In this document: positions 739 to 63,603 of the stretch, piece by piece
How the letters are laid out: every line of letters starts with the position of its first letter
How positions within the stretch are numbered: position 1 is the stretch's first letter
Source of the DNA: Ecdyonurus torrentis
Lineage: Eukaryota > Arthropoda > Insecta > Ephemeroptera > Heptageniidae
Direction of reading: 5' to 3'
Length of the DNA: 64,000 nt
Assembly: GCA_949318235.1 (NCBI GenBank)
Contig: OX439131.1
Span: forward strand, 8,610,811-8,674,810
Notes under the pieces: model-generated
Databases searched by the model: none
What the model was told of the DNA's origin: nothing
The model's input: only the letters and a program-made list of their open reading frames with translations
Position numbers and translations under genes: made by a program

Positions 739-17756
<17,018 letters not shown>

Positions 17757-17810: not shown

Positions 17811-18026
17811 TTCTTATTGTCCTATTTATTTTAATGTACATACATCAATAGCAACCTAAAAATATATATACAACATAGCTTAATTTCATTATGTGTGTAT
17901 AAGAAAATAATAATTTTTATTAATGCCAAATTGTTATAATTAAGTTTCTGAAGTTATACAAAGCTAAATTTTGAAAACATAAAAACTTTTATAAAGCAGT
18001 TAAATAATATATAATATAAATATTAA

Positions 18027-18335
18027 AGACGTAGAACACCTTGAACAAAAAAGTTGCCTAATATCCTAACATACCCAAATATCAACATTATTTTGGTCGG
18101 AGTCATTGATTTCTAATTTATTTTCCATTTACAAAGTGTCAGTTGCGGGTTTACTACGTCACAGCTCGCCTGTTTCCGCGCGCGTGGACCAGGCGAGCTG
18201 TGACGTAGTAAACCCGCAACTGACATTTTGTAAGTGGAAAATAAATTAGAAATTAATGACTCCGGCCAAAATAATGTTGATATTTGGGTATGTTAGGATA
18301 TTAGGCAAGTTTTTTGTTCAAGGTGTTCTACGCCT
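18027..18335. mobile_element. TTAA-type foldback MITE, copy 2 of the 8284 family
   Basis: A 309-bp palindrome closely matching 8284-8573, with TTAA at 18023-18026 and 18336-18339. Both arms carry GTCACAGCTCGCC and GTTGCGGGTTTACTACGTCA. It lies about 270 bp past the RASA3 stop. Confidence 0.9.
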
Positions 18336-20278
18336 TTAAGTGTTTAATGTAACTAATTTACATTATTTTGAACAAATATGAATATTTTAAATAAGTCTAT
18401 TGTTATTTTTTTTTTCCTATTATTATAGGAATTAATATAGATAGTCCTCATGGCTTTTTTTCCTGTGATTTGAAAATACTTCTCTAAAATTATGCTTTAA
18501 CTTATTTTGTGTTTTTAGATTTTAGCAGTATTAATTAGTTTTTGTGTGTGCATGTAAAATTTCGTAGAAAAACAAAAATTGGACATTTTAATTGGATAAT
18601 GGTATTTTCTGCTTACAAAATAAATATTTGTAAAGTCTTCCCCTGCTTTTATACCATACCATTCCTTATTTTGTATCCATAAAAAATATACTGTAGATAC
18701 AAGTTGTATGTAAAAATTATAAAAAATAGGATATTACTTCACTAAACTTGTTGGGTTAGAATGTCTATCGCTGTGAATAATTTTTATTGTTAATTACTTG
18801 ATAAGAATTTAGCTGTAAAATTTCAATTGGAACCCTTTTTTAAAATAGCAAAGAGCTGTTCAATACCAATTTGTTTGAAACTTAAATGCAAGCTTGTGAT
18901 TTACTGTAGCTAAATAAATAATGATAATAAAATACTCAAGCGACAGACGTTCTATAACAATAAACTTATTGTGGTCATTCATTAGCAGAAAATAAAACTG
19001 CATGCATGTGTTTATCAACTTAATTTACCATACACTGTCTCTCAGTTTTCCAATAATTATATATTTCTTTTGCCATTTCCAATATTTTTAATATATACAT
19101 ACTATTAGACTTTTTTAATACCTATTTGCATGTGTCTCATTTTTTTTTTAAATATATATATAATATATATTTAATATAGGTACAAAAAAATATATAATAC
19201 ATTATAAATTTTACAAAGCATAAGAACTGATTCAGTTATAATTCCTTCTTATTTTCTCAAGATTATTATTGTGTTAAATAAGAAGGATATTGAAAAACAC
19301 AAACTATGTTTTGTGGCTCATTAACTGTTTTCCATTGCATTTAAATTGTGCTCGTACAACTTTGTTAAAGCTTAAATTCATCTTAATTTTTTTTTATATT
19401 ATAGGTATAATGTATACATTATATTATGATAATTGTTTGAAAACAAAAATGTTAAAATAATATAAATGGAATGTTAATTACTAGAGAATACTATATATTA
19501 ATATAAATAATATAAATGTATATGTAATCCTAATTGTCAATTTACCCTTTAAATAAGGGATAAAAAATATATACATAAGTGTTATTTACAATATGTGTTA
19601 CAAAAAATTAAATAGCTCCATACGTCTAAATTTTTATGATGTAGCAATATTAGCATTTAACTTTTAGAGCCCTGTGATGTTTGAAATGTTGCACAACTGA
19701 GTATGTTTGGTGACACTGTAATGTTTGCTGGGGTTGCCCTCCATTATTATTATTATTAAAAAAAATTAAACCAGACTGCTTCCTTATATTAATTCAGTAG
19801 ACAAGAAAATCAGTAGAATGCATGTGAAAATGACAAACATGGCCACCATCAATCTCTTAATTTAACAGGAGATTTATAATAGTATCTGGAAATAAATAAT
19901 AATATATCTGGGGGGGGGGGGGGTATACAAACTTTTAATCGTGTTCATCTTTTATATGTTTCTGTAGTACAAAATAACCGATATGATTTATAGAAACCCT
20001 AATTGACTTGGCTAATGTTGTTAATTTTTCATATGCACCTACTTCATTTGAATACATAAACAAATATTTTATCATCTTACATTTAATTTTTCTAGTAGCA
20101 TTCAAAAAGAAAAATTGTAAAATTGTGTTTATGTCTCAAATAACTTTATTATATATATTAACTTGACTTCATTAAATTTTACAGTGTGAGAGAGAAAGAA
20201 TAGATGTGTAATTGCTGCAGTGGTTGCTCACCTCTGAAGAGGGATTTTGAGCGTTGGTAAACAATTAAAAAAGAAATA

Positions 20279-20731
20279 AAAAGGATAAGAGAAACCAGCA
20301 AGGGCCTTACCATAGTGAAGAGAGTCCCATAGTTCGGTGAAAATCTTGCTAGCACAGATATAAAAAACTAACACATTGGAAATATTTCGGCAATTAACTC
20401 CAAGAGAGATGGAGTGTGTTATGCCTTCATCAGTCCTTACAGACTCGGAGAGAAACTATGAATGAATTTATTTATGATCATTTATAATGATCATTTATTA
20501 TTAAATGATCATTTAATTTAATGTAATTTATTATAAATGATCATTTATAGTTTCTCTCTGAGTCTGTAAGGACTGATGAAGGCATAACACGCTCCATCTC
20601 TCTTGGAGTTAATTGCCGAAATATTTCCAATGTGTTAGTTTTTTATATTTGTGCTAGCAAGATTTTCACCGAACTATGGGACTCTCTTCACTATGGTAAG
20701 GCCCTTGCTGGTTTCTCCTATGCTTTTCTTT
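20279..20731. mobile_element. AGCAAGGGCC-terminus palindrome with hammerhead-like motifs
   Basis: The left end AAGAGAAACCAGCAAGGGCC is mirrored by GGCCCTTGCTGGTTTCTCC-like sequence at the right. Arms of about 180 bp meet in an ATGATCATTTA-rich centre. Each arm reads outward CTGATGA, GGCA...TGCC, then GAAA, resembling a hammerhead core, but the helix next to the core is imperfect. Related copies lie at 16906-17308 and 29251-29410. Confidence 0.75.
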
Positions 20732-25142: not shown

Positions 25143-27139
25143 ATGCAGCGAAGGGGCGGGAAAAGGATTCGGATGGATGATCCTCCACCCGAATATGAGA
25201 ACCCCTGCACCCCAATGACGCCGATGGATGTGTCTGGAAGTGATATTCAAGAACCTTATACACCCTATCAATCATATTCAACACAGCCACCTACACCTCT
25301 TACTCATGGGTATGATAAAATTGACTACGGGCAATGGTGTTTCATTAGCCTTGCTCGCCCTCGTCTCCGATTTGATTTCATTTGTGCTTTAATTAAAGGT
25401 TAATTTAACCTTTTATCTCTGCTTCTCTTTTGACTTGAAGACTAATCCTGATAAATCAAATTTAGATAATTGCCAATTAAAAGATAAAGTTCAGATCAAG
25501 ATATTTGAAAGCGAATTGTTTTATAGAAATGCCACACCCCCTTTCCGTTCTCATATAACATATAAGGGTCATCATGTAATAAAGTAAAGTATGATAACGT
25601 ACAAATGTGCGTTATGTTTGTACAAAGGAAAACTAAAATAGCATTCAGTTGCTAAAATAAAATACTATTTACCACTGAAGTTATTCAGGGTTTTTTCCTA
25701 TACACAGGCAAACATTCCAAAAAATTATAATTTCAATTGTATGTATACATAAAATGTGCCACAGCATAAATTTTGTATAAAATATAAGTTTTTTAATATG
25801 CATACACATATGTGCATACAAAGTCTTATTTTGCTGTGTTGTGTATAATTTTAGATCTGATACTGTGTATGGCAGTGACCATTCACAGTTTGAGGCACCA
25901 ACGCCAATGCAGCAAAGCTACAGTCAGCAGCAACCATCAACATCATATGCACAACCTCAGCAGCAGCAGCAACAACAGATGAGTTTCTCATATGATGCAA
26001 CAGCTCAGCAGTTTGAACAGCCTGTGGCATCTCCAGTCAACATGGTCACTCGTACAAGGAGTCGAGGCAGGCCTAGAGGTGGGGGCAGTATGGACAAAAA
26101 TTTATAACTATTTTTGATAAGCTACTTCATTTCTTTCATCATCACATCACCATTCCTTTATTTCTATCGAGGCTTATTATTTAATATTATTTACAATACC
26201 CTACAAATTTGTACTTTTTTATACTTTGTATCAATATAATATATTTAAAAAGTGTTATTTCAGTGTTAACTATGGAGACATTTTGCCACAGTATAAAATA
26301 TATTCAATACATAATAAATACTGTATCATATTTTACACTTGAAGTGTTTTTAAAAGAAAATTTTCTCTCAAATAAATATCAGTACATACAAGTGTGATAA
26401 TATATTTTACCATTCAAAAACTAGCACTTAAGGGGATGCAGTGCCTTTTCCTTCACCAAGCAAGCAAGCAAAAATTTAGTATGAGCCAGGTCGTCTTAGA
26501 GCACACATGTACTTGAGGTCGCTCTGCAATCTCGATGCATTTTTTTCTATGCGGGGGATGTGCAAGGAGTTGCCGGCATCTTCGGCATAGTTCGGTAATC
26601 TCAATTTGCACGCGCCTAGTGCGACCGAGGAGGAGGGGGTGAAACAAGTTAACCCATTGTCTTAGAACCGTGAATGAAACGGGAAAATGAGGTATTTTTC
26701 CCCAAAAATACCTACCAAATAAATGATAAAATTCAGTCCATAATGAATATTTAAGAAAATTAACATTTCAATTTAATTTTTATTGCTCTTGCGGTTTCAT
26801 GCTGTGACTCCCCTAAATACCCTTCCGGTTGCCTTGCTCCTCAATGTAGTAAAGTTATCTCGTATTTCAAACCTGCTTGTATTCTTTTGATTCAAAATTA
26901 TAACATTGGAGGCACTCCATACTGCAAGTAAATTGCAAATAAATTCAAATTGGATTATATTATCGTAAAAATTGTATTTTTGTTTATCAAAAGTACTGTA
27001 TTATTAGACGCAGCACTTTTTTTTTTTTTTTTTTAGAAATTCAAACGCATATGATATCTTTAATTATATTGGCTTTGATAAATTGTAATTATTTTCATAT
27101 TATAATTACATTATTTTCTGTATTATTAGACGCAGTACC

Positions 27140-27170
<31 letters not shown>

Positions 27171-29545
27171 ATTCAAACGCATATGATATCTTTAATTATA
27201 TTGGCTTTGATAAATTGTAATTATTTTCATTCCTTATGCTTAAAATTTCAAATTTTTACGTAATTTTATATGTTTATTACGTATGGAGGAAACTATGGAC
27301 TAGACCTATCCAGTGGCGTAACTACCAGGGGGGAAGAGGGGGGAGTTCCCCCGGGCCCGTCGACTTCTGGGGGCCCGTCGGCTTCTGGGGGGGGCCCGTT
27401 GATGCTTGGCGCAAGGATAAAAATAACAAAAAATATTTAAAACATTTTTAAAAAATCACGCTATTACTTGCAAATATGACAGATTTGAACCGATTTCTTC
27501 TGTGCGCGTCCAATAATTACTTTTCTTTTATATTTATTTTGTTTTTGATTATGTTCCCCTCTCTTCCTTTTCAATGAGGGTATTAATATTAACTACATTT
27601 TTTAACTGTCACATCCTTCTAATTAAATTTTCTATAAATGTCTTCTTCAAATATCATAAAATATGTATTTTTTCTATTTATAGTAAAAATTGATTATTGA
27701 CAAAATTAAAATCATTTATGATAGCCTATTTTAACGATTTTTTTTTTTTTTTTTTTTCAATGTTAGTGACACTTTTTAATTGTCATTATAAAAATAGCTT
27801 AAAATTTCAGTGCCACGCCCCCTTTTTCAAAATTTTTCGCCTGCGGCGCGCGTCCTCCCCACCTCCACGGCACTGTCCCCCTTTCGGGGGGCCCGTGTCA
27901 GATTTTTTCCCCTGGCCAAATTTTTGAAGTTACGCCACTGGACCTATCTTCACCCTCTTTTTCTTTGCAAACTGCAAGAGCTGCCTCTCTTGTCGTGCTG
28001 AGTTGAAGGCAAGAGGGTAAGCGAGGGCGGTAGTTTCGTTGACTGCACTTCGGTAATCTCCGCCAAAAGTCACACATGCACTCTTGCTGCATTTTTTGGT
28101 CAAAAAACTAAAATTTACCCTAGTAGAGACATCTGATGTTTGCCATAGGAATTAAAAATTGTATGGAGATTATAGGTATTATAATTAAAAGCAAAATATA
28201 ATTAAAAAGTATCGTTTTTATTTAAATTGCAACAAACACTGCATGTCTGCAATCAAATTTTCTATCGGGCTGACGGAGCACTTTGGTGAATTTTAAGCCG
28301 TAAATATATATTATTTGCTTGTATTGATTAGTCACAATGTTAATCTTATGGAGATAGAGATTAATCAACTTACAAGTGAAATGATTCGAATACTAATTGA
28401 CATAAGATTGTGTTTTTTATATTGTTGGATAAAGTATGTTTTCAATTTCTGGGCTGATGGACAAATTTGTGCTAAGATGATGTGGGGCTAAAATATATCA
28501 CATTTTCTAAGGCTCCGCGAAATGCCACTGCAACTTCTTAATTTAGGTACCATGTTATTCTTATGAGAATGCACTGCATTTGAAAGGTAAAATATATTAT
28601 ATTGGTACGTACATTATGACAAAAATTTCAGTTAACAAAACTTTGAGTAGTACAGTTGATTGTGTTGATTTTTCAGGCAGTTATCGTGGTGGAGCAGGTG
28701 CTGGCAGAGGCGTGAGTGTCAGCATTACCTCCCCTGATGACTCTGCCAAGAAGAAACGCCCTGGCAGAAGGTCAGCTCCTGATAATGCAGTTGAGGATGA
28801 GAACAGCTTATACAGCATCATTCGTCAAGGCAAGATTGGACTTCAGGTAGGTTTCTAAAGTTATATTCAAATTAAATATCATGTATTCCTGATTAGAGCA
28901 GGGAACACTAATATTGTGAGCTTGGTATAAAGAGTGCTTTGTGTTACGCTTAGTTTGTTTTACAGCAAGTGGTGGATGATTGGATTGAACACTACAAGGT
29001 TGAGAGAGATGTCGCCCTGCTAGCATTGATGCAGTTCTTCATTAATGCATCAGGGTGCAAGGGAAAAATTAGCAGAGCTATGCAATTGCACATGGAGCAC
29101 GCGGGCATCATCAGAAAAATGACAGAGGAGTTTGATGAGGTAAAGGAATTGATAAAATACCATTTGATTAAAAATTTATTAGATAATTACTACATGTTTT
29201 CAATTTAATGATAAAAATAACAAAAACATAAGCATTATAGAAAAATACAGAAATATCAGCAAGGGCTTGACTACAGTAGAAGTTCTATGGAGAGGTTGAA
29301 ATCTCACATGGCACAGAGTTATAATGTTTATAACTATAACTCTGTGCCGTGTGAGACCTTGACCTCTCCATAGAACTTATACTGTGGTAAGGCCCTTGCT
29401 GATTTTTTTTATGTGTATAAGGAAAAAACATTGCAGTTTGTATTAATAAGTTAAAAAATAATAATTAGAAAATAGTTGGTAGAGATTAGAGCACGTTGAA
29501 TTGAAAATTAATAAAACGCAAAGATTCTCTAATTTATAGGCCTAT

Positions 29546-29602
<57 letters not shown>

Positions 29603-31638
29603 TTTTTTTAATCTCTCAACGTGCTCTAATCTCTACCAACTATTTTCTAATTATTTTTTTAGAAGTATATTTATGTTAAAATAAAGTCTGAATTTGTCCC
29701 TCCTCCTCATTGATTTATAATGTTTTAAAAATCCTGAGCCCCATATTTGTCATCTAAAAAGTTCAATCAACTAAAAATGTTTGTCTTAAATTGTTGCTGG
29801 TCATAGCTTTTATTGATTGTAACATTGTGCTATGATCTGGTAATTGCAGGAGAGTGGAGAGTACCCTCTGACAATGACAGGTCAACAGTGGAAGAAATTC
29901 AGGACCAATTTCTGTGAGTTTGTTCAGCTATTAGTGAAGCAGTGTCAATACTCCATCATCTATGACCAGTACCTTATGGACAATGTCATCTCTTTGCTCA
30001 CTGGTCTCTCAGATTCTCAAGTTAGAGCTTTCCGACACACTGCCTCCATGGCTGGTAAGTAGTATTAACAATTTTTTCCTACAAACTTTTTTTTTCCTTC
30101 TTTTCTTTTCTTTTCCTTTCTTTTCTTTTCTTTTCCTTTCTTTTCTTTTCTTTTCTTTTCTTTTCTTTTCTTTTCTTTTCTTTTCTTTTCTTTTCTTTTC
30201 TTTTCTTTTCTTTTCTTTACACTTTCTCACTTTCTCATCCCCTATATTTGTGTGTGTGGAGCTCTGCTATTAATAAAATTTCAATTAAACAATAACAGCC
30301 ATGAAGTTGATGACTGCACTCGTGGATGTTGCATTGACTGTGTCTGTCAACCTGGACAACACTCAGCGACAGTATGAGGCAGAAAGACAGAAGACTAGAG
30401 ATAAGAGAGCCAGTGATCGTCTGGAAGCTCTCATGAGTAAACGTCAAGAGTTGGAGGAGAACATGGATGAAATCAAAAACATGCTTACCTATATGTTTAA
30501 GTCTGTCTTTGTGCATCGCTACAGGTAAGCTGTATTCAGTATTGAATTTCTTTAGCTGACATTGTAATCAAGTAATGTATTGTAGTATAAAATTGCTACC
30601 TAAATAACAAATCAATATTTTCCCCCTAAAAAAGTTCTGTTGTTTTTAAAGTTCAGCTTTTATCTAGCTAAAATGGTGACTTTGTTTATTTATTATTATT
30701 TGAAACAAATTATATTTCTACCTATGTAGTTTGCAATTGACTTAAGAACACTTAGGTATACAATATATTGTACATACATACATACATATCATGACGCTAT
30801 AATCCCTTTAGGGGTAAGCTAACAACACAGATGTTTTATCCTGACCCATTGATAGACCTCCACAACTTCCTATCCTGACATACCTCACTTGCTTCCTGCA
30901 GTCTTAAGTATCATTCACATGACGCGTTAATTTGACGCGCGTCGACGGATAAACAAAGTTGCAACAATATAAACAAATGGACCCTTTCACATGGTTTTAA
31001 AACTGACGCGTGCTGACGCGTCCTGACGTGCAAAGCTGGCATCTCCCAGCTTTCGTCGCGTCAGCGCGCGTCAGCGCGCGTCAAAATGACGGATGCATGT
31101 GAACGGTCCCATTTGTTTACAATAGCGCAGCTCGACGCGTCAGGACGCGTCAGTTTTCTGCGCATGCGCGTGCGCATGCGCAGTACGCTTTCTCATCGCT
31201 CTCATGTGAAATAGGCAAATTCTTGAACCCGTCAGCCCGCGTCAGTGTCCGTCGACGCGCGTCAAATTTACGCGTCATGTGAATGATACTTTATACCTTG
31301 TTTCTAACATTTCCTTTTGCATCTCATACTGCGTACATTCTTATTATATTGTATAACTATTAAAATAGCATTGGACAGCACTCAAGGAAGGGGAAAAAAA
31401 TGACAATACAATATGCATTATTGCACTATATGACAATAGAAAGAAAAGAAGTTATAATGTAAATCAAAGTAAAGAAAGTACAGTTGTTTAAAAATTAAAG
31501 TATGCCACATGGAAAATTATATTACCCAAAGAACTTACCTTATAGATTAATTAATATAATTAATTAATATATATTAATTATATATAATATATATATAATA
31601 TATAATTAATATATATTAATTATAATTATAATTAAATT

Positions 31639-31706
<68 letters not shown>

Positions 31707-34700
31707 TGATAATGGCACTAACCTATGTTTAAATTGCAGAGACACTCTACCTGAAATCCGTGCCATTTGCATGGCTGAGATTGGTGTGTGGATGAAGAAA
31801 TTCCACCAAAACTTCCTTGATGACTCGTACCTTAAGTATATTGGATGGACTTTGCATGACAAATGTGGAGAAGTCAGACTAAAGTGCTTGCAGGTTTGTA
31901 CTTTGCTTTAATTTGTTACTACATATAAAAAGTAATTACCATAAACTTAACAAGATCTCTGTGTCATGAGCTACATGAAATACAATTGTGTCACTTTAAT
32001 TTAGGCGTTGCAACCCCTGTACGCCTCAGAGGAACTGAAAGGCAAGTTGGAGCTGTTCACGTCCAAGTTTAAAGATCGTATTGTTGCAATGACACTGGAC
32101 AAAGAGTATGATGTAGCCGTGCAAGCAGTCAGACTGGTCATCAGCATTCTCAAGTAAGGACCTTGTACTCATTTTCATTCCTACATAAAAAACCACATCA
32201 TAAAAATTAGCTTACAAATTGAATATTATGTAAATTGTTGATTTACTTTTTAATACAGTAGTTTGTAATTTTAAATAAATTTAAAACTTATATTAGATGC
32301 AAAAAATAATAATAATAACAATAAAATAAATAAATTTAAAAATAAAATTGATAATAAAGAAAATACTATAGTACAAGAAAGATAGAGCATTTTCAATACA
32401 AAATAATAATAATAATAAAATTAACGTGCTCTAATCTCTTGCTTATTGTTTTCTAATATTGATTTGATTTTTTAACATCTAACACAACCTCCACCTAGTC
32501 AACCTCAATGTTTTCTTCCTGATTTTTAAATTTCAAACTTTTTTCATTATTATTACGCTTAAAAAAATAATTAGAAAATAGTTGGTAGAGATTAGAGCAC
32601 GTTGAATTGAAAATTAATAAAACGTAAAAATTCTGTAATTTAGATAGTAAATTGGGACTAGGGATGCAAATCATTCTAGCTTGCGTTATAATTAAAATAG
32701 ACGTTAAAAGGGATGTGGGGTATAGTGTCAATGTAAAATACGATATACCTAACATCTCACTTTCTCACACTTGATCAAAGGCACAACATTATAAAACAGC
32801 ATCAGACTTACTCTTGGCCTTAGACCGGTTTCGTCCTTTACCTAGGACTCATCAGTAAGGCTCGGCAGAGAGCTCTGTACAGCTAGAGATGGCTCACACC
32901 ACATCTGCTAACTGACTGAGCTGAGGAAGCAAGTGGCAGCCGCGTTTTTATACGCGATGCCCCCACATCTGCCCGCGCTGATTGGTTAAACAATTGCCCG
33001 CGCAAACCCGGCTTGCTGTTTAAAACCTCTCATCCTCACACTGTAATATAATATTGTGCACTAAGAGGGATGCAAGACTAGCTGCCAGCAAGCTACATGT
33101 GCCCTCCCTCACTTCCTAGAGTTCCCCAACTCCAGAAAGTTCTAGCAATGCGCCTGCCGGCCGCGCTGTGTCGTGATTCAAGCTAGTTACATTGTTTAAT
33201 ATATTGACACCGGGGTAGGAAAAGTAAAAAAGATGATAGAAATAGGAGAGATAGGATAAATACATGCGCTTTGGCATATTTTTAATTTAATTAATTTAGT
33301 ACGTGCTCTTATTGGCGTTGGCAAGTAAAAAGGGGCCGAGAATACTTTTTTACTTTTCCTACCCTGGTGTCAATATATTAAACGATGTAACTAGCTTGAA
33401 TCACGATACTGCGCGACCGGCAGGCGCATTGCTAGAACTTTCTGGAGTTGGGGAACTCTAGGAAGTGAGGGAGGGCACATGTAGCTTGCTGGCAGCTAGT
33501 CTTGCATCCCTCTTAGTGCACAATATTATATTACAGTGTGAGGATGAGAGGTTTTAAACAGCAAGCCGGGTTTGCGCGCGCAATTGTTTAACCAATCAGC
33601 GCGGGCAGATGCGGGTGCATCGCGTATAAAAACGCGGCTGCCACTTGCTTCCTCAGCTCAGTCAGTTAGCAGATGTGGTGTGAGCCATCTCTAGCTGTAC
33701 AGAGCTCTCTGCCGAGCCTTACTGATGAGTCCTAGGTAAAGGACGAAACCGGTCTAAGGCCAAGAGTAAGTCTGATGCTGTTTTATAATGTTGTGCCTTT
33801 GATCAAGTGTGAGAACGTGAGATGTTAGGTATATCGTATTTTACATTGACACTATACCCCACATCCCTTTTAACGTCTATTTTAATTATAGCGCAAGCTA
33901 GAATGATTTGCATCCCTAGTCCCAATTTACTATCTAAATTACAGAATTTTCGCGTTTTATTAATTTTCAATTCAACGTGCTCTAATCTCTACCAACTATT
34001 TTCTAATTTTTTTTTGTGTTTTTAAACGTAGTAATTACCAACCGCGATGGTTTTTTCCTATATATTTTATTTTTTTCATTATTGCTAGTATAAAAAAAGT
34101 CAAATTTTGTGTCAGAAAGTTGTAGTGTAGTTTGTTTGAATTTTAATGTGATGTGTTTTGACAGACATCACCGTGACATTCTCACTGACAAAGACTGTGA
34201 GCACGTGTATGAGCTTGTGTACTCTTCTCACCGTGCAGTGGCACAAGCAGCTGGTGAGTTCCTCAATGAACGTCTCTTTGTGCCAGACGAAGATGCAGTG
34301 TCTGGCCAGAGAACTCGCAGAGGAAAGCGTCGCCTCCCAAATACACCTCTAATCAGAGACTTAGTGCAATTCTTCATCGAGTCTGAGGTATGTGAATTTG
34401 AGCTCCTGTGCTATTATACAAGTTTTATTTGCATATAGAAACCTGATATAGTTTAGTTTTGAACTATTGTGTATTTTTTTTTTTTTTTTTTTTTTTTCCA
34501 CTTGCAGTTACATGAACATGGAGCATACCTAGTAGACTCACTCATTGAGTCTAATGAGATGATGAAAGACTGGGAGTGCATGACAGACTTGCTACTGGAA
34601 GAGCCTGGCCCAGATGAGGAACCATTAGATGATCGTCAAGAGACTAGTTTGATTGAAATCATGAGTTGCTGCATCAGACAGGCGGCTACTGGAGAACCCC

Positions 34701-41942: not shown

Positions 41943-43017
41943 CATATCGACAAAATCAAATAGTAACCTCGTATCTTAGATTTTGATGTTTTCAAGTTTA
42001 CAGTAGCACTGTAGCTCAGAAAAAAATTACAAAAAATTAACTTTTATTTTATCCTAAGGCACATGTATTGCACATTACTTCAGCTCAGTTTCAAACTTTG
42101 CCAACTGGTGGTGTCTTTGTAATTAACTAATTAGTAACAAAAAACGACTTTTTTTGTGTAATTTTGAAAACAATGATTTGAAAAGTGCATTTCCTCTGAA
42201 AGTACATGAGATAAAAATTTCAAATTCAAACAACCAATAAAGGAAATATTGATTATTCATGCCATGCATACAAAAAAAAATTGCAACCAACCCCTTTGCC
42301 AAAAAATGCAAAAAACGTAACTTTGTAACTACAAGGATTTTAAAGCTGAAAATCACTTTAGGGGTAGAATTGTGTATTGGTAATATGAAACCATTCAAAT
42401 TATTTTGTTCAGTTATTTGTGCGAGAAAATATATATTTATTTAAAAAGTATATGTACTCCGGGTTGCATTTTACAGGCTGATTGTGCTGCGCGCTGCATT
42501 TATTAGGCGCTCTCAAGAATTTTAAATCATAATTTGGGGTTATTTTAAGGTTATTTCAATTAAAGTATTAAATCATTTTACCAATACAAATTTATGGCTC
42601 TAAACTGATTTTCAGCTTCTAAACCTTTGTAGTTTCAAAGTTACGTTTTTTGCATATTTTGGCAAAGGGGTTGGTTGCAATTTTTTTTGTATGCATGGCA
42701 TGAATAATCAATATTTCCTTTATTGGTTGTTTGAGTTTGAAATTTTTATATCATGTACTTTCAGAGGAAATGCACTTTTCAAATCATTGCTTTCAAAATT
42801 ACACAAAAAAAGTCGTTTTTTGTTACTGATTAGTTAATTACAAAGACACCATCAGCTGGCAAAATTTGAAACTGAGCTGAAGTAATGTGCAATACATGTG
42901 CTTTAGGATAAAATAAAAGTTAATTTTTTGTAATTTTTTTCTGAGCTACAGTGCTACTGTAAACTTGAAAACATCAAAATCTAAGATACGAGGTTACTAT
43001 TTGATTTTGTCGATATG
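41943..43017. mobile_element. 1.1 kb foldback palindrome between STAG and cry2
   Basis: CATATCGACAAAATCAAATA at 41943 is mirrored at 43017. The arms are about 500 bp with few differences (mirrored frames at 42123-42398 and the 42600-42800 region). The GC-rich loop contains GTGCTGCGCGCTGC. No transposase is present. Confidence 0.85.
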
Positions 43018-44184
43018 CAACTACTACAGGCTGGTTGTTACAATCATATCTATCATGCACTTCCCAAATGCTGTGTGGCATAGTAACATGCATTGTGCAA
43101 TGTGGTATGCTCCCACAATTCATTTATACACTAACAATTAGCAGAGGCCTGAAATTTATACTCTTTAATGTAAAAGTTACGACTATTCTTTCCATTATCA
43201 CTATACTATATCAACATTAATGAGCATTCCTTGTAAAAGATAATACGTAATTTTTCTAGGTAAAGCACATAAAAATAATTAAACGGACACTCATTTTCTG
43301 GCGCCATTTTATTTGACACCTGATTTGTAGTATCTCTCTAAACTTGGGTTGAATGGAGAGGCTCTGTATCTGATTTTGCCGAAAAAAATAAGTAAATAAA
43401 TAAAGCATGAGTTTACATTACTATTTTAAGACAATGAAACAAAGTTATGTTTTTCAAACACCATTTTATTGTAGTACAGGGTACTTAAATTACTTAAATT
43501 TAATATTATGAATTGAATAATAAAGTAATAACTGTTTTGAGGCTGACTATAAGCGATTTTGCATACATCTGCCTCCGTTTGGACATACTGCCCATGCGTA
43601 GTAAGTCGAAACAGAAGCAGATGTGAATGATATTGCTTAAAGTCAGTCTGAAAAACAGTTGTTCCTTTATTAGTCAATAACAGTGTATTCGTCAACAACA
43701 GAGTTTATAATACAGACTACAAAAGCTTATACAGTATATTTATATAAAATATTATCTCAAGTAATACTTATGTAATAAATAATTTAATTACGTGCACACT
43801 AAAATGAAATGTAAATGATTTTATTTTAAAATCTTTTTATTGATTTTAAGGCAAATATTGTTTATGTGAGTCATTATTATTATTTTTTTTTTTTAATTTT
43901 TTTTTTTATAAAACCTTTTTTTTTATGTGATTGTTCCTTCATTATAAAAATAGGATTTTTTTTTTTTTTAATAAAAATAAGCAATGGTAAAAAGTATGAA
44001 TTTGTATGCTAAGGTAATGAATACCACAAGTAAATTTAGTAGCAATGACAGCAGTCAGAATTCCTAATCAGTTGATTCCAGGAATTTTATTTTATTATTG
44101 GTAATGATTTTTTTTTCTTCTTTTTTTCCATGTTATATATTTAACTGCACAAAGATGCATCATATGATAATAAATTTTTAAACG

Positions 44185-44270
44185 TTCATATTTTTCATAG
44201 TACAGAATTTTGTTGTTCCAGACAAACTTTAAAAGTGTTCAACTATCCACTAAAAACTAAACAGTTAATT

Positions 44271-44316
<46 letters not shown>

Positions 44317-45780
44317 ATAGGTCCTATATAAATTTTAATGTTCATATTTTTTGTAATACAGAATTTTTTGTTGTGCCAGCCAAACTATAAAAGTGGCGAA
44401 TTATCCACACAAAACTAAATAGAAAATGAATTTTTTTTTCACCATAACAGACATAAAAAAAAGGTAATTATACAAAACAGTAATATTAAAACAAACATCA
44501 AAATCAAATACAATGATTGCACATGCAATAACTGATATAATATGGGTTGGTGGAACAAAAATGAAGGCAAGGCATTATAAAGAATACCACTTACACATAT
44601 GGGGATATGTGCCGCACAATGATTATATGGTGCCGCCAACATTTTGGATTAGCAAGTACAATGTGTTGTCATATAAAAATGCTGATTTTCACTTAATACT
44701 TTTAAATGTTCGTATTTGTCGTAGTACAAAATTTTTTGTTGTGCCAGCCAAACTATAAAAGTGTCAAAGTAACCACACACAAAAACTAACCAGAAAATGA
44801 TTTCTTTTTAATATATTAAAATGTTAAATTTATCATATTATAGAATTTTTTGTTGTGCCAGCCAAACTAAAAAAGTTCCTAATTTTCAACTAACAATTAA
44901 ACAGAAATTGACATTTTTTTTTTAATAAATTTAAATATTAATGTTTGTTGTAGTACAAAATTTTGTTGTTGTGCCAGCCAAACTTAAAGTGTCAAATCAT
45001 CCACTAAAAACTAAACAGAAAATGACTTTTTTTTTCTTTTTTTTTTAAATAAATTTAAATGTTTTCATTTGTTTATGTAGTACACATTTTGTTGTTGTGC
45101 CAGCCAAACTTAAAGTGTCGAATCATCCACTAAAAACTAAACAGAAAATGACTTTTTTTTTTTTTTTTTTTTTTTTTAATAAATTTAAATGTTTAAATTT
45201 GTTGTAGTACAATTTTTTTTTTTGTGCCAGCCAAACTATAAATGTGTCGAAATTTCCACTAAAAACTAAACAGACAAGAACGTCTTGAAAATAATAAAAA
45301 TAAACTTTCATATTTGTCATATAGTGAAAAAAATTTGTTGTACCAGCCAAACTATAAAATTGAGAAATAATCCACTAAAATTAAAGACTTTTTTTTATAT
45401 CCCCTAAAAGTGATCAGAATAATAGGTCTTGTTTTTAAAAAAAAAAAAAAAATTAAATGTTGGTATTTGTCGCAGTACATAATCTTGTTGTGCCAGCCAA
45501 ACTATAAAAGTGTGGAATGATCCACTAAAACTGAGCAGATAAGGACTTTTTAAATAATAAAATTAAACGTTCGTATTTGTCAAAGTACAGAATCTTGATG
45601 TTGTGCCAGCCAAACTATAAAAGTGTGGAATGATCCACTAAAAACTGAACAAACAAGGACTTAATAATAATAAATTGAATGTTTATATTTGTATTTTGTT
45701 ATAGTACAAATTTTTTTTGTGCCAGCCAAACTATAAAATTGAGGAATTATCCACTAGAAACTGAGCACTTTTATTGTGTT
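44185..45780. repeat. Minisatellite array abutting the cry2 3' end
   Basis: About eleven copies of a unit centred on TTGTGCCAGCCAAACTATAA, then AAGTGTNGAATNATCCACTA, AAAACTAAACAG, a T- or A-rich spacer and ATTTGTTGTAGTACA. Unit spacing is mostly 115-150 bp because of poly-T length differences. A unique 280-bp stretch (about 44430-44700) interrupts it between early copies. The last copy runs to about 45780, only about 33 bp from the cry2 stop, and contains the cry2 AATAAA. Confidence 0.88.
45770..45775 (-). terminator. Candidate cry2 polyadenylation signal
   Basis: On the minus strand an AATAAA hexamer lies 37 nt after the cry2 TAA, inside the last minisatellite unit. It would give a very short 3' UTR; use of signals deeper in the array is possible. 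Confidence 0.45.
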
Positions 45781-45812
45781 TTTTTTTTTTCTGTGAGAGA
45801 AGACGCACGTGA

Positions 45813-61500: not shown

Positions 61501-63603
61501 CCTGCTATTTCTCAACTTTTTATGTTATATCCCTGGCTTGCAACGCCTTGAACAATGTGTGAGCGTCTAGAATTTTCTCACGCCTCACTGGCGGTGCAAT
61601 GCCGCGGGTATAAATATCCCCGGCTCAGCAGCCAGTTACCAGTTCTACTCCACCCAAACATAAGGGAGAGAAAAACCATGCCGGTGCTCAAAACACCAAC
61701 ATTTCTAGCTTTGCAAACTATTTAGTAAAATAAGTACAAAAAAGAGCCTCCTATATAAATTTATCCTATGATACTTAGACCCCCCCCCCCCCCCCCCCTC
61801 TTGTCCAGTTAACATTAAGCTTATTGTACAAAATAAACTACAAATAATTTCCCTATATCTGTTATCTGAAAAAGGCAATTGTATCTATTGTTTTGAAATA
61901 TGAAATTAGTTTACTGTGCTACATAAAACTTACAATGCGAATGCGGTGGCCAATTGCCTTGGCAGGGAGGTTGCGCCTGAACTTGGCTCTCAGGCCGCCA
62001 CTGCAGCCATGTGATCTGGTCACCTTGCCCCAGATGGCACGCACCTTGGACTTGCGTGTTGTGTTGGGTACCCTTGTCCTTCTCTTGGCCTGTAACAAAT
62101 TCAAGTTAGAAATGTCATCATTTTTTATATAGCATCTATTTATTCATTACAACTGCAATTGTTTGTCTTTTTAATGTTATAAATTTATTGCATACTGTAA
62201 AATTAATTTCCAAGCAGTTAAAAAAATGCATAATCAAAAAAAAAATTATGCAAACACTATTAGTTCACATTTATGTTTGGAGTATCGTATTACATTTAGT
62301 TTGTAAAGCTGTGAATAATAATTTTATTAATTTTTTAAATGTACAGTACCAGATAGAACTTTCATTTAAATTTCTATAACTTACCCAAGTAATAATAAAT
62401 GCACCACTTTTGCTTTCACATATTTATTTATTTTTTTCCGTACTCTGCACAGCAAATCATTAATGGAAGACTAGCAAAAGTAGGTTTAATGAGAAAATAA
62501 ACAAATTCACAGCTCAACAATACTAACAAAGTGCTAGCAGACGACTTTGTGTTCCTGTCTCAATTTAACATGCTTTCTTATGGGGCAATGAAGCAGCTGT
62601 AACTCGAATTAGATTTATTTTTCGTAGTTAAAATTTTTACTGTAGCATGCTGAGCATTGAAGCTTTTGTTTTCCTGGATTTTATGTCAATTGGATGAAAA
62701 AAATAATTTGTAACCAAATTGTTTGAAATCCAGGAAATCAAAAGCTTCAATGCTCATCAAGCTACAGTAAAAATCTCAGCTCCAAGAAATAATTCTAACT
62801 TCAGTTACAGCTGCTTCATTGGGGCCATACAAAAGCATGTTAAATTCAGACAGGAACACAAAGTCGTCTGCTAGCACTTTGTTAGTATAGTTGAACTGCG
62901 AGTTTATTTTCTCACTAACCCTACTTTTGCAAGCAAAACTATCTTTCTTTTGAATTAATTTTATTTCTACTCCACTTTTAATTAAGACAGTAACTCAAAG
63001 TTGTCTGACAGCACTTTGTTAGTATTGCTTGCCAAGCTTGTTAATTTATGGGCTAAGCCAAAGGCATCCGAAAGGTGTTTTCACCTATTCCTTATTTTTC
63101 CAGTACAAAATCCTTTGCAATTAAATAAGTAATTAGCAAGTTCAACCCCTCTAGCTTTACATACTGGTTCAGGAAATAATAATAATCATCTTTAAATCAC
63201 ATCAGCCAGAAATTGATTCCTCCCATTGGTACCCAGTAATTACATCAGGACCATACATCATCACATCACATATGCATACCAGTATGCCGTTCCAGCCACT
63301 CAACTTCCAATAAATAAAACCTACCTTATAAACATAGACACAGCGCTTGCCGATGTAGAACTCTGTTTCATTCTTTATGGTGCAGCCTTCAACTTTAAGA
63401 AGAGCTGTGTTTTCATGTTGATTTCTAAGTCCTCGCTTGTAGCCAGTGAAGACTGCTCTAGCATAAAGCCGCCCGTGTCTTTTAATTGGGCGCTTCTTTG
63501 AAACTTTTTTCGGCGCTTCGCTAGCGGGAGTGACTGCCTTCTCTTTCTTCTTCTCTTTCTTGTCAGCCTTAGGCTTAGGTGTTTTCTTTTCTGTATCCGC
63601 CAT
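58582..63603 (-). CDS. RPL35A: 60S ribosomal protein L35a / eL33 (3 coding exons, 152 aa)
   Basis: Structural protein of the large ribosomal subunit (eL33). Coding exons: 63603-63325, 62089-61934, 58605-58582, all GT-AG with phase 0. The conserved core starts at [18 protein letters not shown] (residues about 46-63) and continues through [58 protein letters not shown] and GHRIRIMMYPSRI. The last exon encodes only MMYPSRI and stop, matching the invariant C terminus. About 40 extra Lys/Pro/Ala-rich residues precede the core, giving 152 aa against about 110 in vertebrates; arthropod eL33 proteins also carry such N-terminal extensions. A 3' splice site (TTTTCCAG) 4 nt before the ATG indicates a 5' UTR intron, as is common for ribosomal protein genes. 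The upstream exon is not located. Confidence 0.95.
60554..60970. mobile_element. Inverted-repeat element with TACAGTTTCAGACAAATG ends (RPL35A intron 2)
   Basis: The left TACAGTTTCAGACAAATGAA is mirrored by CATTTGTCTGAAACTGTA ending at 60970, with further pairing through TGGTA..TTTGCGCGCCTCAAAT. Inside lies a TTAACCCATTGTGGACGG end (60747) like piggyBac termini, suggesting a nested insertion. Confidence 0.75.
60985..61090. repeat. Inverted copy of the 30785-30903 repeat
   Basis: GAAAGTTGTGGAGGTCTATC, GTTGTTGGCTTACCCC and TATAGCTTCACGATATG are the complement of the STAG intron 6 copy, in the same order. Confidence 0.6.
62474..62940. mobile_element. 467-bp palindrome in RPL35A intron 1
   Basis: GCAAAAGTAGGTTTAATGAG at the left mirrors CTCACTAACCCTACTTTTGC at the right. 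Long paired arms run through GTGCTAGCAGACGACTTTGTG and GAAGCTTTTG. A partial extra copy of the CAGCACTTTGTTAGTATTG segment lies at 63010-63030. Confidence 0.82.

Follow-up and report, generated by a model that had tools for sequence, protein, structure and literature searches.

A mirror-image element inside an intron of the STAG gene

The 64-kb window, i.e. the whole stretch of DNA that was analysed, harbors a cohesin STAG gene on its + strand, and one of the introns of this gene contains the element under study, a ~1.5-kb mirror-image piece of mobile DNA, both halves of which bear a small self-cleaving RNA motif (Table 1). Reading the sequence, the intron is predicted to extend from the GT at 32154 to the AG just before 34165. 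For the host gene, a search with the joined STAG protein scored 7,978 candidates, 2,716 of them at E 0.001 or better, and the best 120 were considered. The best-scoring match is the mayfly Cloeon dipterum (76% over the query), and among the matches listed a termite and stick insects come next by score, their named full-length matches being at 68-70%, with a few partial matches of other arthropods displaying 74-75% identity over 72-79% of the query.

The element is organized as an inverted repeat of 671 nt (arms 32562-33232 and 33345-34015), 98% complementary, with 112 nt between the arms and differences between them at 13 of the 671 positions. The first-pass annotation of this DNA had placed a palindromic element at 32561..34013. 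The palindrome holds, but not its end, as the right arm and the tail that follows it extend to 34070, and we place the left edge at 32552. The outermost 10 nt of the left arm (32552-32561) were assigned from a 13-bp direct repeat and not from the arm match; taken alone, these 10 nt align with the other arm at chance level, 1,441 of 5,000 random segments also attaining their score of 16. This direct repeat, TTTTTTCATTATT, is present in two copies directly outside both edges, 32552 and 34070. In a control on random segment pairs of the window of the same size, in which pairs less than 500 bp apart were skipped yet counted in the 20,000, a shared 13-mer was found in 30 of up to 20,000 pairs, 23 of these 30 not being simple repeats.

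The element contains no reading frame for RT or GIY-YIG: its longest stop-free stretch is 71 codons, and Pfam at E 1 gave no match in the 10 that were searched of its 21 stop-free stretches of at least 30 codons, which supports the initial view that it has no reverse transcriptase. Lacking the ORF for a telomerase-like RT and a GIY-YIG endonuclease that marks the autonomous, EN-containing Penelope-like elements, the copy is at most a derived, non-autonomous one. Six-frame translation of the 112-nt centre revealed nothing recognisable as coding. The outer part of both arms carries a stop-free stretch of ~70 codons (33813-34022 on the + strand and 32552-32764 on the - strand), with no Pfam match.

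Table 1. Coordinates of the element, of its parts and of its two shorter relatives in the window
Feature	Position	Strand	Remarks
Relative #2	29408..29676	.	Shorter head-to-head pair, outer ends as in the element; left-hand tail; no ribozyme
Relative #3	32360..32538	.	Short copy, older and decayed, adjoining the element on its left; right-hand tail
13-bp direct repeat, left copy	32539..32551	+	TTTTTTCATTATT; putative target-site duplication
Left arm (putative pLTR)	32552..33232	-	Reads leftwards, without tail; symmetric part 32562-33232
GTAAGT, left arm (mirror)	32806-32811	-	Shortly after the ribozyme; putative 5' splice site
Minimal type I hammerhead motif, left arm	32817..32861	-	Rfam and structural scan
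Overlapping Inr-like TCAGCT/TCAGTC, left arm	32914..32924	-	Predicted transcription start; putative role
TATAAAA box, left arm	32946..32952	-	30 nt before the A of TCAGCT; putative role
CCAAT box, left arm	32981..32985	-	Motif position; putative role
Asymmetric centre between the arms	33233..33344	.	112 nt
Right arm (putative pLTR)	33345..34035	+	Reads rightwards; symmetric part ends at 34015
CCAAT box, right arm	33592..33596	+	Putative role
TATAAAA box, right arm	33625..33631	+	Putative role
Overlapping Inr-like TCAGCT/TCAGTC, right arm	33653..33663	+	Predicted transcription start; putative role
Minimal type I hammerhead motif, right arm	33716..33760	+	Rfam and structural scan; predicted cleavage after C33754
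GTAAGT, right arm	33766..33771	+	Shortly after the ribozyme; putative 5' splice site
Tail, right arm only	34036..34070	+	35 nt; holds an ATG also present in the tails of #2 and #3
13-bp direct repeat, right copy	34071..34083	+	TTTTTTCATTATT

Each arm carries outward-facing promoter motifs and a minimal hammerhead motif

Read outwards, each arm displays the same succession of a CCAAT box, a TATAAAA box, an Inr-like motif, a hammerhead motif and a GTAAGT, followed by ~260 nt up to the arm end. The A of TCAGCT lies 30 nt downstream of the TATA T. The promoter and splice roles assigned to these motifs are putative, and the motif positions support the outward-facing promoter-ribozyme unit that had been proposed for each arm. 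The longest stretch without differences between the arms, 199 nt, covers the promoter-ribozyme block; as a gap of this length arises in 13.8% of random placements, we make no claim of selection on this block. In the interval 33625-34165, the promoter motifs of the right arm point along STAG, the next exon of which starts ~95 bp past the element, and they could serve as an alternative STAG promoter.

The two hammerhead motifs, 45 nt each, are identical and lie on opposite strands. Direct reading gives in both arms a stem I GCCTTA/TAAGGC, the core CTGATGA, a stem II GTCC/GGAC, which amounts to 5 bp with the adjacent U-A included, then GAAA, ACCGGT and the GTC triplet, confirming the two mirrored hammerhead arms recognized in the palindrome by the first-pass annotation and supporting the minimal type I form that it gave them. 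Each motif scores 30.0 bits with the Rfam model RF00163, which corresponds to an E of 7.3e-05 for the 2,001 bases searched and of 0.0023 for the 64-kb window. The covariance model proposed as a check thus detects both arms, but below the curated cut-off of 34 bits, and at the curated cut-offs the window has no match. We attribute this shortfall to the missing stem III loop, all core nucleotides being present. A strict structural scan of the window (CTGANGA, stem II of at least 4 bp, GAA, stem III of at least 2 bp and stem I of at least 5 bp) returned exactly two sites, both of them the arm hammerheads, and returned none on either strand of 60 first-order Markov copies. No third hammerhead was found in the window by the structural scan or by Rfam at E 1; a pattern match at 28734 was discarded as a candidate since the structural scan did not find the site.

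Stem III consists of ACCGGU without a loop and is self-complementary. With no loop, a monomer can hardly form this stem, a reservation to be made when the hammerheads are described as complete. In the predicted minimum of the monomer (-14.7 kcal/mol), ACUG pairs with CGGU and the core is hidden. For two 45-nt strands, the RNAcofold minimum is a dimeric hammerhead at -31.9 kcal/mol, just 2.5 below two separate monomers, with a predicted double hammerhead structure in which stem III has six pairs and two stems I form between the strands. Cofolding thus favours a two-strand dimeric hammerhead. Cutting as a dimer has been proposed in reviews for minimal Penelope-like hammerheads and reported for amphibian ones (PMC6155905; PMC7761336), and a 2020 review calls the role of the hammerhead in Penelope-like elements unknown (PMC7761336). 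Searches with three ribozyme patterns against viral contigs and with one pattern against prokaryotic genome contigs gave 0 matches, an insect element not being expected in such collections. In a limited literature collection, a text search retrieved no paper naming both mayfly and hammerhead ribozyme, and no paper on a mayfly genome with Penelope was found.

Two shorter relatives share the outer ends of the element

Relative #2, which also lies between STAG exons, has its arms joined by a poly-T run, and the outer end on its left matches over 82 nt at 95% identity. A possible 7-bp duplication, TTTATGT, is present at its edges in AT-rich DNA; it is one of two shared 7-mers found, and was picked since it abuts both edges. 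Relative #3 aligns with the outer end over 69 nt at 75%. The left arm of this copy is poorly resolved, and its edges revealed no duplication. Both relatives keep the outer ends without the inner parts, as 5' truncation predicts.

The tailed ends were compared using the segment 34016-34070 of the element. Against the tailed end of #2, none of 5,000 random AT-rich segments scores as high, and the weaker resemblance to the tailed end of #3 is equalled by 52 of 5,000 (~1%). At the tail-less ends, i.e. the left arm of the element (1,441 of 5,000) and the right arm of #2 (1,380 of 5,000), this segment has no match. In the alignment, an ATG with similar surroundings is common to the tails of the element, #2 and #3, and the missing ORF may begin there. 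Note that the left copy of the 13-bp repeat adjoins the decayed tail of #3, and that common tail sequence could account for part of the repeat; its perfect identity beside clearly diverged sequence, the sole counter-argument, disfavours this.

Other repeats in the window

Seven other palindromic elements are found in the 64 kb, at 3323-8810, 5562-6209, 12157-13778, 18023-18339, 20279-20727, 41943-43017 and 62471-62933. The one at 12157-13778 has clean symmetric ends and an exact 8-bp sequence, CACTGAAT, on both sides; no equally clear duplication was found for the six others. The palindrome 18023-18339 has a related copy at 8280-8577, inside the palindrome 3323-8810. A hammerhead search at E 1 gave no match in these seven palindromes. 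Direct repeats also occur: 44161-45790 is an array of diverged copies, often ~114 nt apart, with the phrase GTTGTGCCAGCCAAACT, and at 27017-27230 an 82-nt sequence is present twice at 100% identity, with starts 132 bp apart.

The element compared with Penelope-like elements

In Penelope, the ORF is bounded by pLTRs with an adjacent inverted pLTR, the head-to-head arrangement being the most frequent (Arkhipova et al, 2013; PMC3846280). According to the same paper, the pLTR has a putative TATA and Inr, an optional 31-bp tail is found at the 3' end of one inverted pLTR, and target duplications of 8, 9 or 10 bp flank some copies and are missing from others; in Adineta, the pLTR with the tail reaches into the ORF. 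Inverted pLTRs and short 3' extensions are also named in a curation guide (PMC8969392). The Adineta vaga Pen families are therefore like the element in their mostly head-to-head inverted pLTRs, TATA and Inr, 31-bp tail and 8-10-bp duplications, and, in a few cases, in the unrelated sequence lying between solo pLTRs (PMC3846280). Unlike these families, the element is a pair alone, without RT or EN, and its arms measure ~680 nt against 193-218 bp for the Adineta pLTRs; a hammerhead is read directly in each of its arms, whereas the main text of the Adineta paper does not contain the word (PMC3846280). Inverted head-to-head pLTR pairs being known in ordinary Penelope elements (PMC3846280), the suggestion that the inverted order could mark a distinct retrozyme-like family is not supported. 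The kinship with Penelope-like elements suggested at the same time is likely.

The Anolis Poseidon element PAc cuts and extends both target strands, prefers AT-rich DNA, and initiates internally on the RNA, at two sites between which the tail lies; its hammerhead, located at the pLTR-ORF junction and overlapping the ORF start, does not cut without protein, and hammerhead mutants are without effect on insertion in vitro (Frangieh et al, 2024; PMC11167929). PAc resembles the element, as modelled below, in a hammerhead near the ORF start, a tail between two RT start sites, AT-rich targets, and the cutting and extension of both strands (PMC11167929). It differs in having a full ORF and tandem direct copies, and in the overlap of its hammerhead with the ORF start: any ORF start in the element would lie ~290 nt past the hammerhead, in the tail (PMC11167929).

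As to the ribozymes, minimal hammerheads without helix III map in some cases to Penelope-like pLTRs (PMC7761336; PMC6155905). In Penelope-like elements and Terminons, such minimal type I hammerheads have no proper helix III and may cut as dimers (Cervera & de la Pena, 2014; Lunse et al, 2017, both cited in PMC7761336), like those of the element, which differ from them in the self-complementary stem III ACCGGU and in the presence of two copies on opposite strands.

A derived Penelope-like copy would combine an inverted head-to-head pair, a minimal hammerhead within the pLTR, an optional tail of 30-40 bp on one arm and a short target duplication. Here, promoter motifs and ribozymes face outwards in 98% inverted arms, a minimal hammerhead lies within the putative pLTR in both arms, a tail of 35 nt is present on the right arm alone, and 13 bp are repeated in AT-rich DNA, the possibility of shared tail sequence applying to this last feature. 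Note that a duplication is no strict marker, since some published Penelope copies have none (PMC3846280). The element is thus probably a non-autonomous head-to-head Penelope-like pLTR pair in the STAG intron of a mayfly-like insect, which would have formed by the mechanism proposed below. This reading builds on directly observed features, namely the hammerhead motifs, the arm symmetry, the outward order of the motifs, the single tail, the edge repeat and the same-ended relatives, and takes the arms as putative pLTRs from their form, not from homology. The most satisfactory account of the element is that of a derived member of a kind already known and not of a new system, its identity as a Penelope element in the strict sense being unproven because RT and endonuclease are absent.

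Alternative readings

The structure could also be that of a foldback or TIR DNA transposon (MITE-like) that captured a hammerhead and a promoter, with #2 and #3 as internally deleted derivatives and a transposase acting from outside. The window is rich in TIR-like elements, with no fewer than seven palindromes besides this one, one of them with the exact 8-bp flanking repeat; furthermore, the element (#1) and #2 keep both ends, with one tail in each of the three copies, and such a tail in all three copies would also result from a DNA transposon with unequal ends, which counts against the pLTR reading. We nevertheless regard a TIR transposon as unlikely. In such a transposon, the inverted ends would extend to the duplication on both sides, and the duplication would have a fixed length. 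The symmetric arms fall short of the right edge, leaving the 35-nt tail outside, and the element does not match, on one side, the clean symmetric ends and exact 8-bp duplication of the 12157-13778 palindrome. The candidate duplications differ, 13 versus 7 bp, the second being weak, in a comparison limited to three copies, one of them decayed. Promoter motifs and hammerhead follow one another in each arm as they do in a Penelope pLTR, and none of the 10 searched frames, all from the element itself, matches Pfam.

Two further readings can be set against the orientation of the arms and the differences between them. An inverted retrozyme-like unit living via ribozyme-processed circular RNA would fit the small size of the element, its non-coding nature, its promoter motifs and its pair of type I hammerheads, and animal retrozymes, themselves small and non-coding, do carry type I hammerheads (PMC7229834). 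However, animal non-LTR retrozymes are direct tandem repeats that give RNA circles of ~170-400 nt (Cervera & de la Pena, 2020; PMC7229834), which the orientation of the element cannot yield. A retrozyme, with its direct repeats, two same-sense hammerheads and unit RNA, was not recovered here: the hammerheads lie on opposite strands, with no third in the window, and no transcript of the locus holds two sense copies, so that no unit is excised and retrozyme-style excision is excluded at this locus. Judging from the arm symmetry, a read-through transcript would instead fold as a 671-bp hairpin. We therefore hold this reading to be very improbable. Even less credible is an assembly artefact in which the palindrome would be an inverted chimera. 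Long inverted repeats are a known library artefact, but the 13 arm differences, the direct repeat at the edges of the element and the existence of a second, smaller pair with the same ends (#2) argue against it.

A model for the formation of the head-to-head pair

For the Penelope-like pLTR pair, we infer the transcription, the cutting, the enzyme and the order of events as follows. An autonomous relative elsewhere would make tandem transcripts, the pLTR of which would begin with a Pol II promoter, continue with a minimal hammerhead and then run up to the point where the enzyme gene starts. This enzyme would nick both strands of an AT-rich target DNA, and reverse transcription would begin inside the RNA, at either of two neighbouring sites that would correspond to the outer ends of both arms. 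The 35-nt tail on the right would reflect use of the far start site, and the tail-less left end use of the near one. Synthesis of the two cDNAs would have ended within the pLTR or a little upstream of it, and the cDNAs would have been joined at the centre by their 5' ends, a joining that would leave the 13-bp target duplication. The hammerheads would be passengers in this copy, each of them being transcribed outwards from its own promoter; they would cut best as a dimer of two RNAs, splitting a leader of ~100 nt from the rest.

We lean slightly towards two independent starts of reverse transcription over self-priming, since a tail would be expected in both arms if the first cDNA had served for self-priming. 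The authors of the 2013 Adineta study preferred self-priming on an antisense template (PMC3846280). Cutting by the hammerheads of the element, and any need for it, are putative, the motif lying below the Rfam cut-off, the Anolis hammerhead being unable to cut without protein and its mutants leaving insertion in vitro unchanged (PMC11167929).

Implications for hammerhead-bearing Penelope-like elements

A more far-reaching idea, to which we give little credence, is that solo head-to-head pLTR pairs with one hammerhead per arm might constitute a self-sustaining non-autonomous family of mayflies, made and remade by an enzyme starting on both cut strands at once, the ribozyme setting the 5' boundary or pairing two RNAs via dimeric cutting. 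The element is otherwise one more probable example of hammerhead-bearing Penelope-like pLTRs. A locus combining a ribozyme, promoter motifs, a tail, a likely duplication and same-ended short relatives helps to ask whether head-to-head copies arise from two starts or from self-priming.
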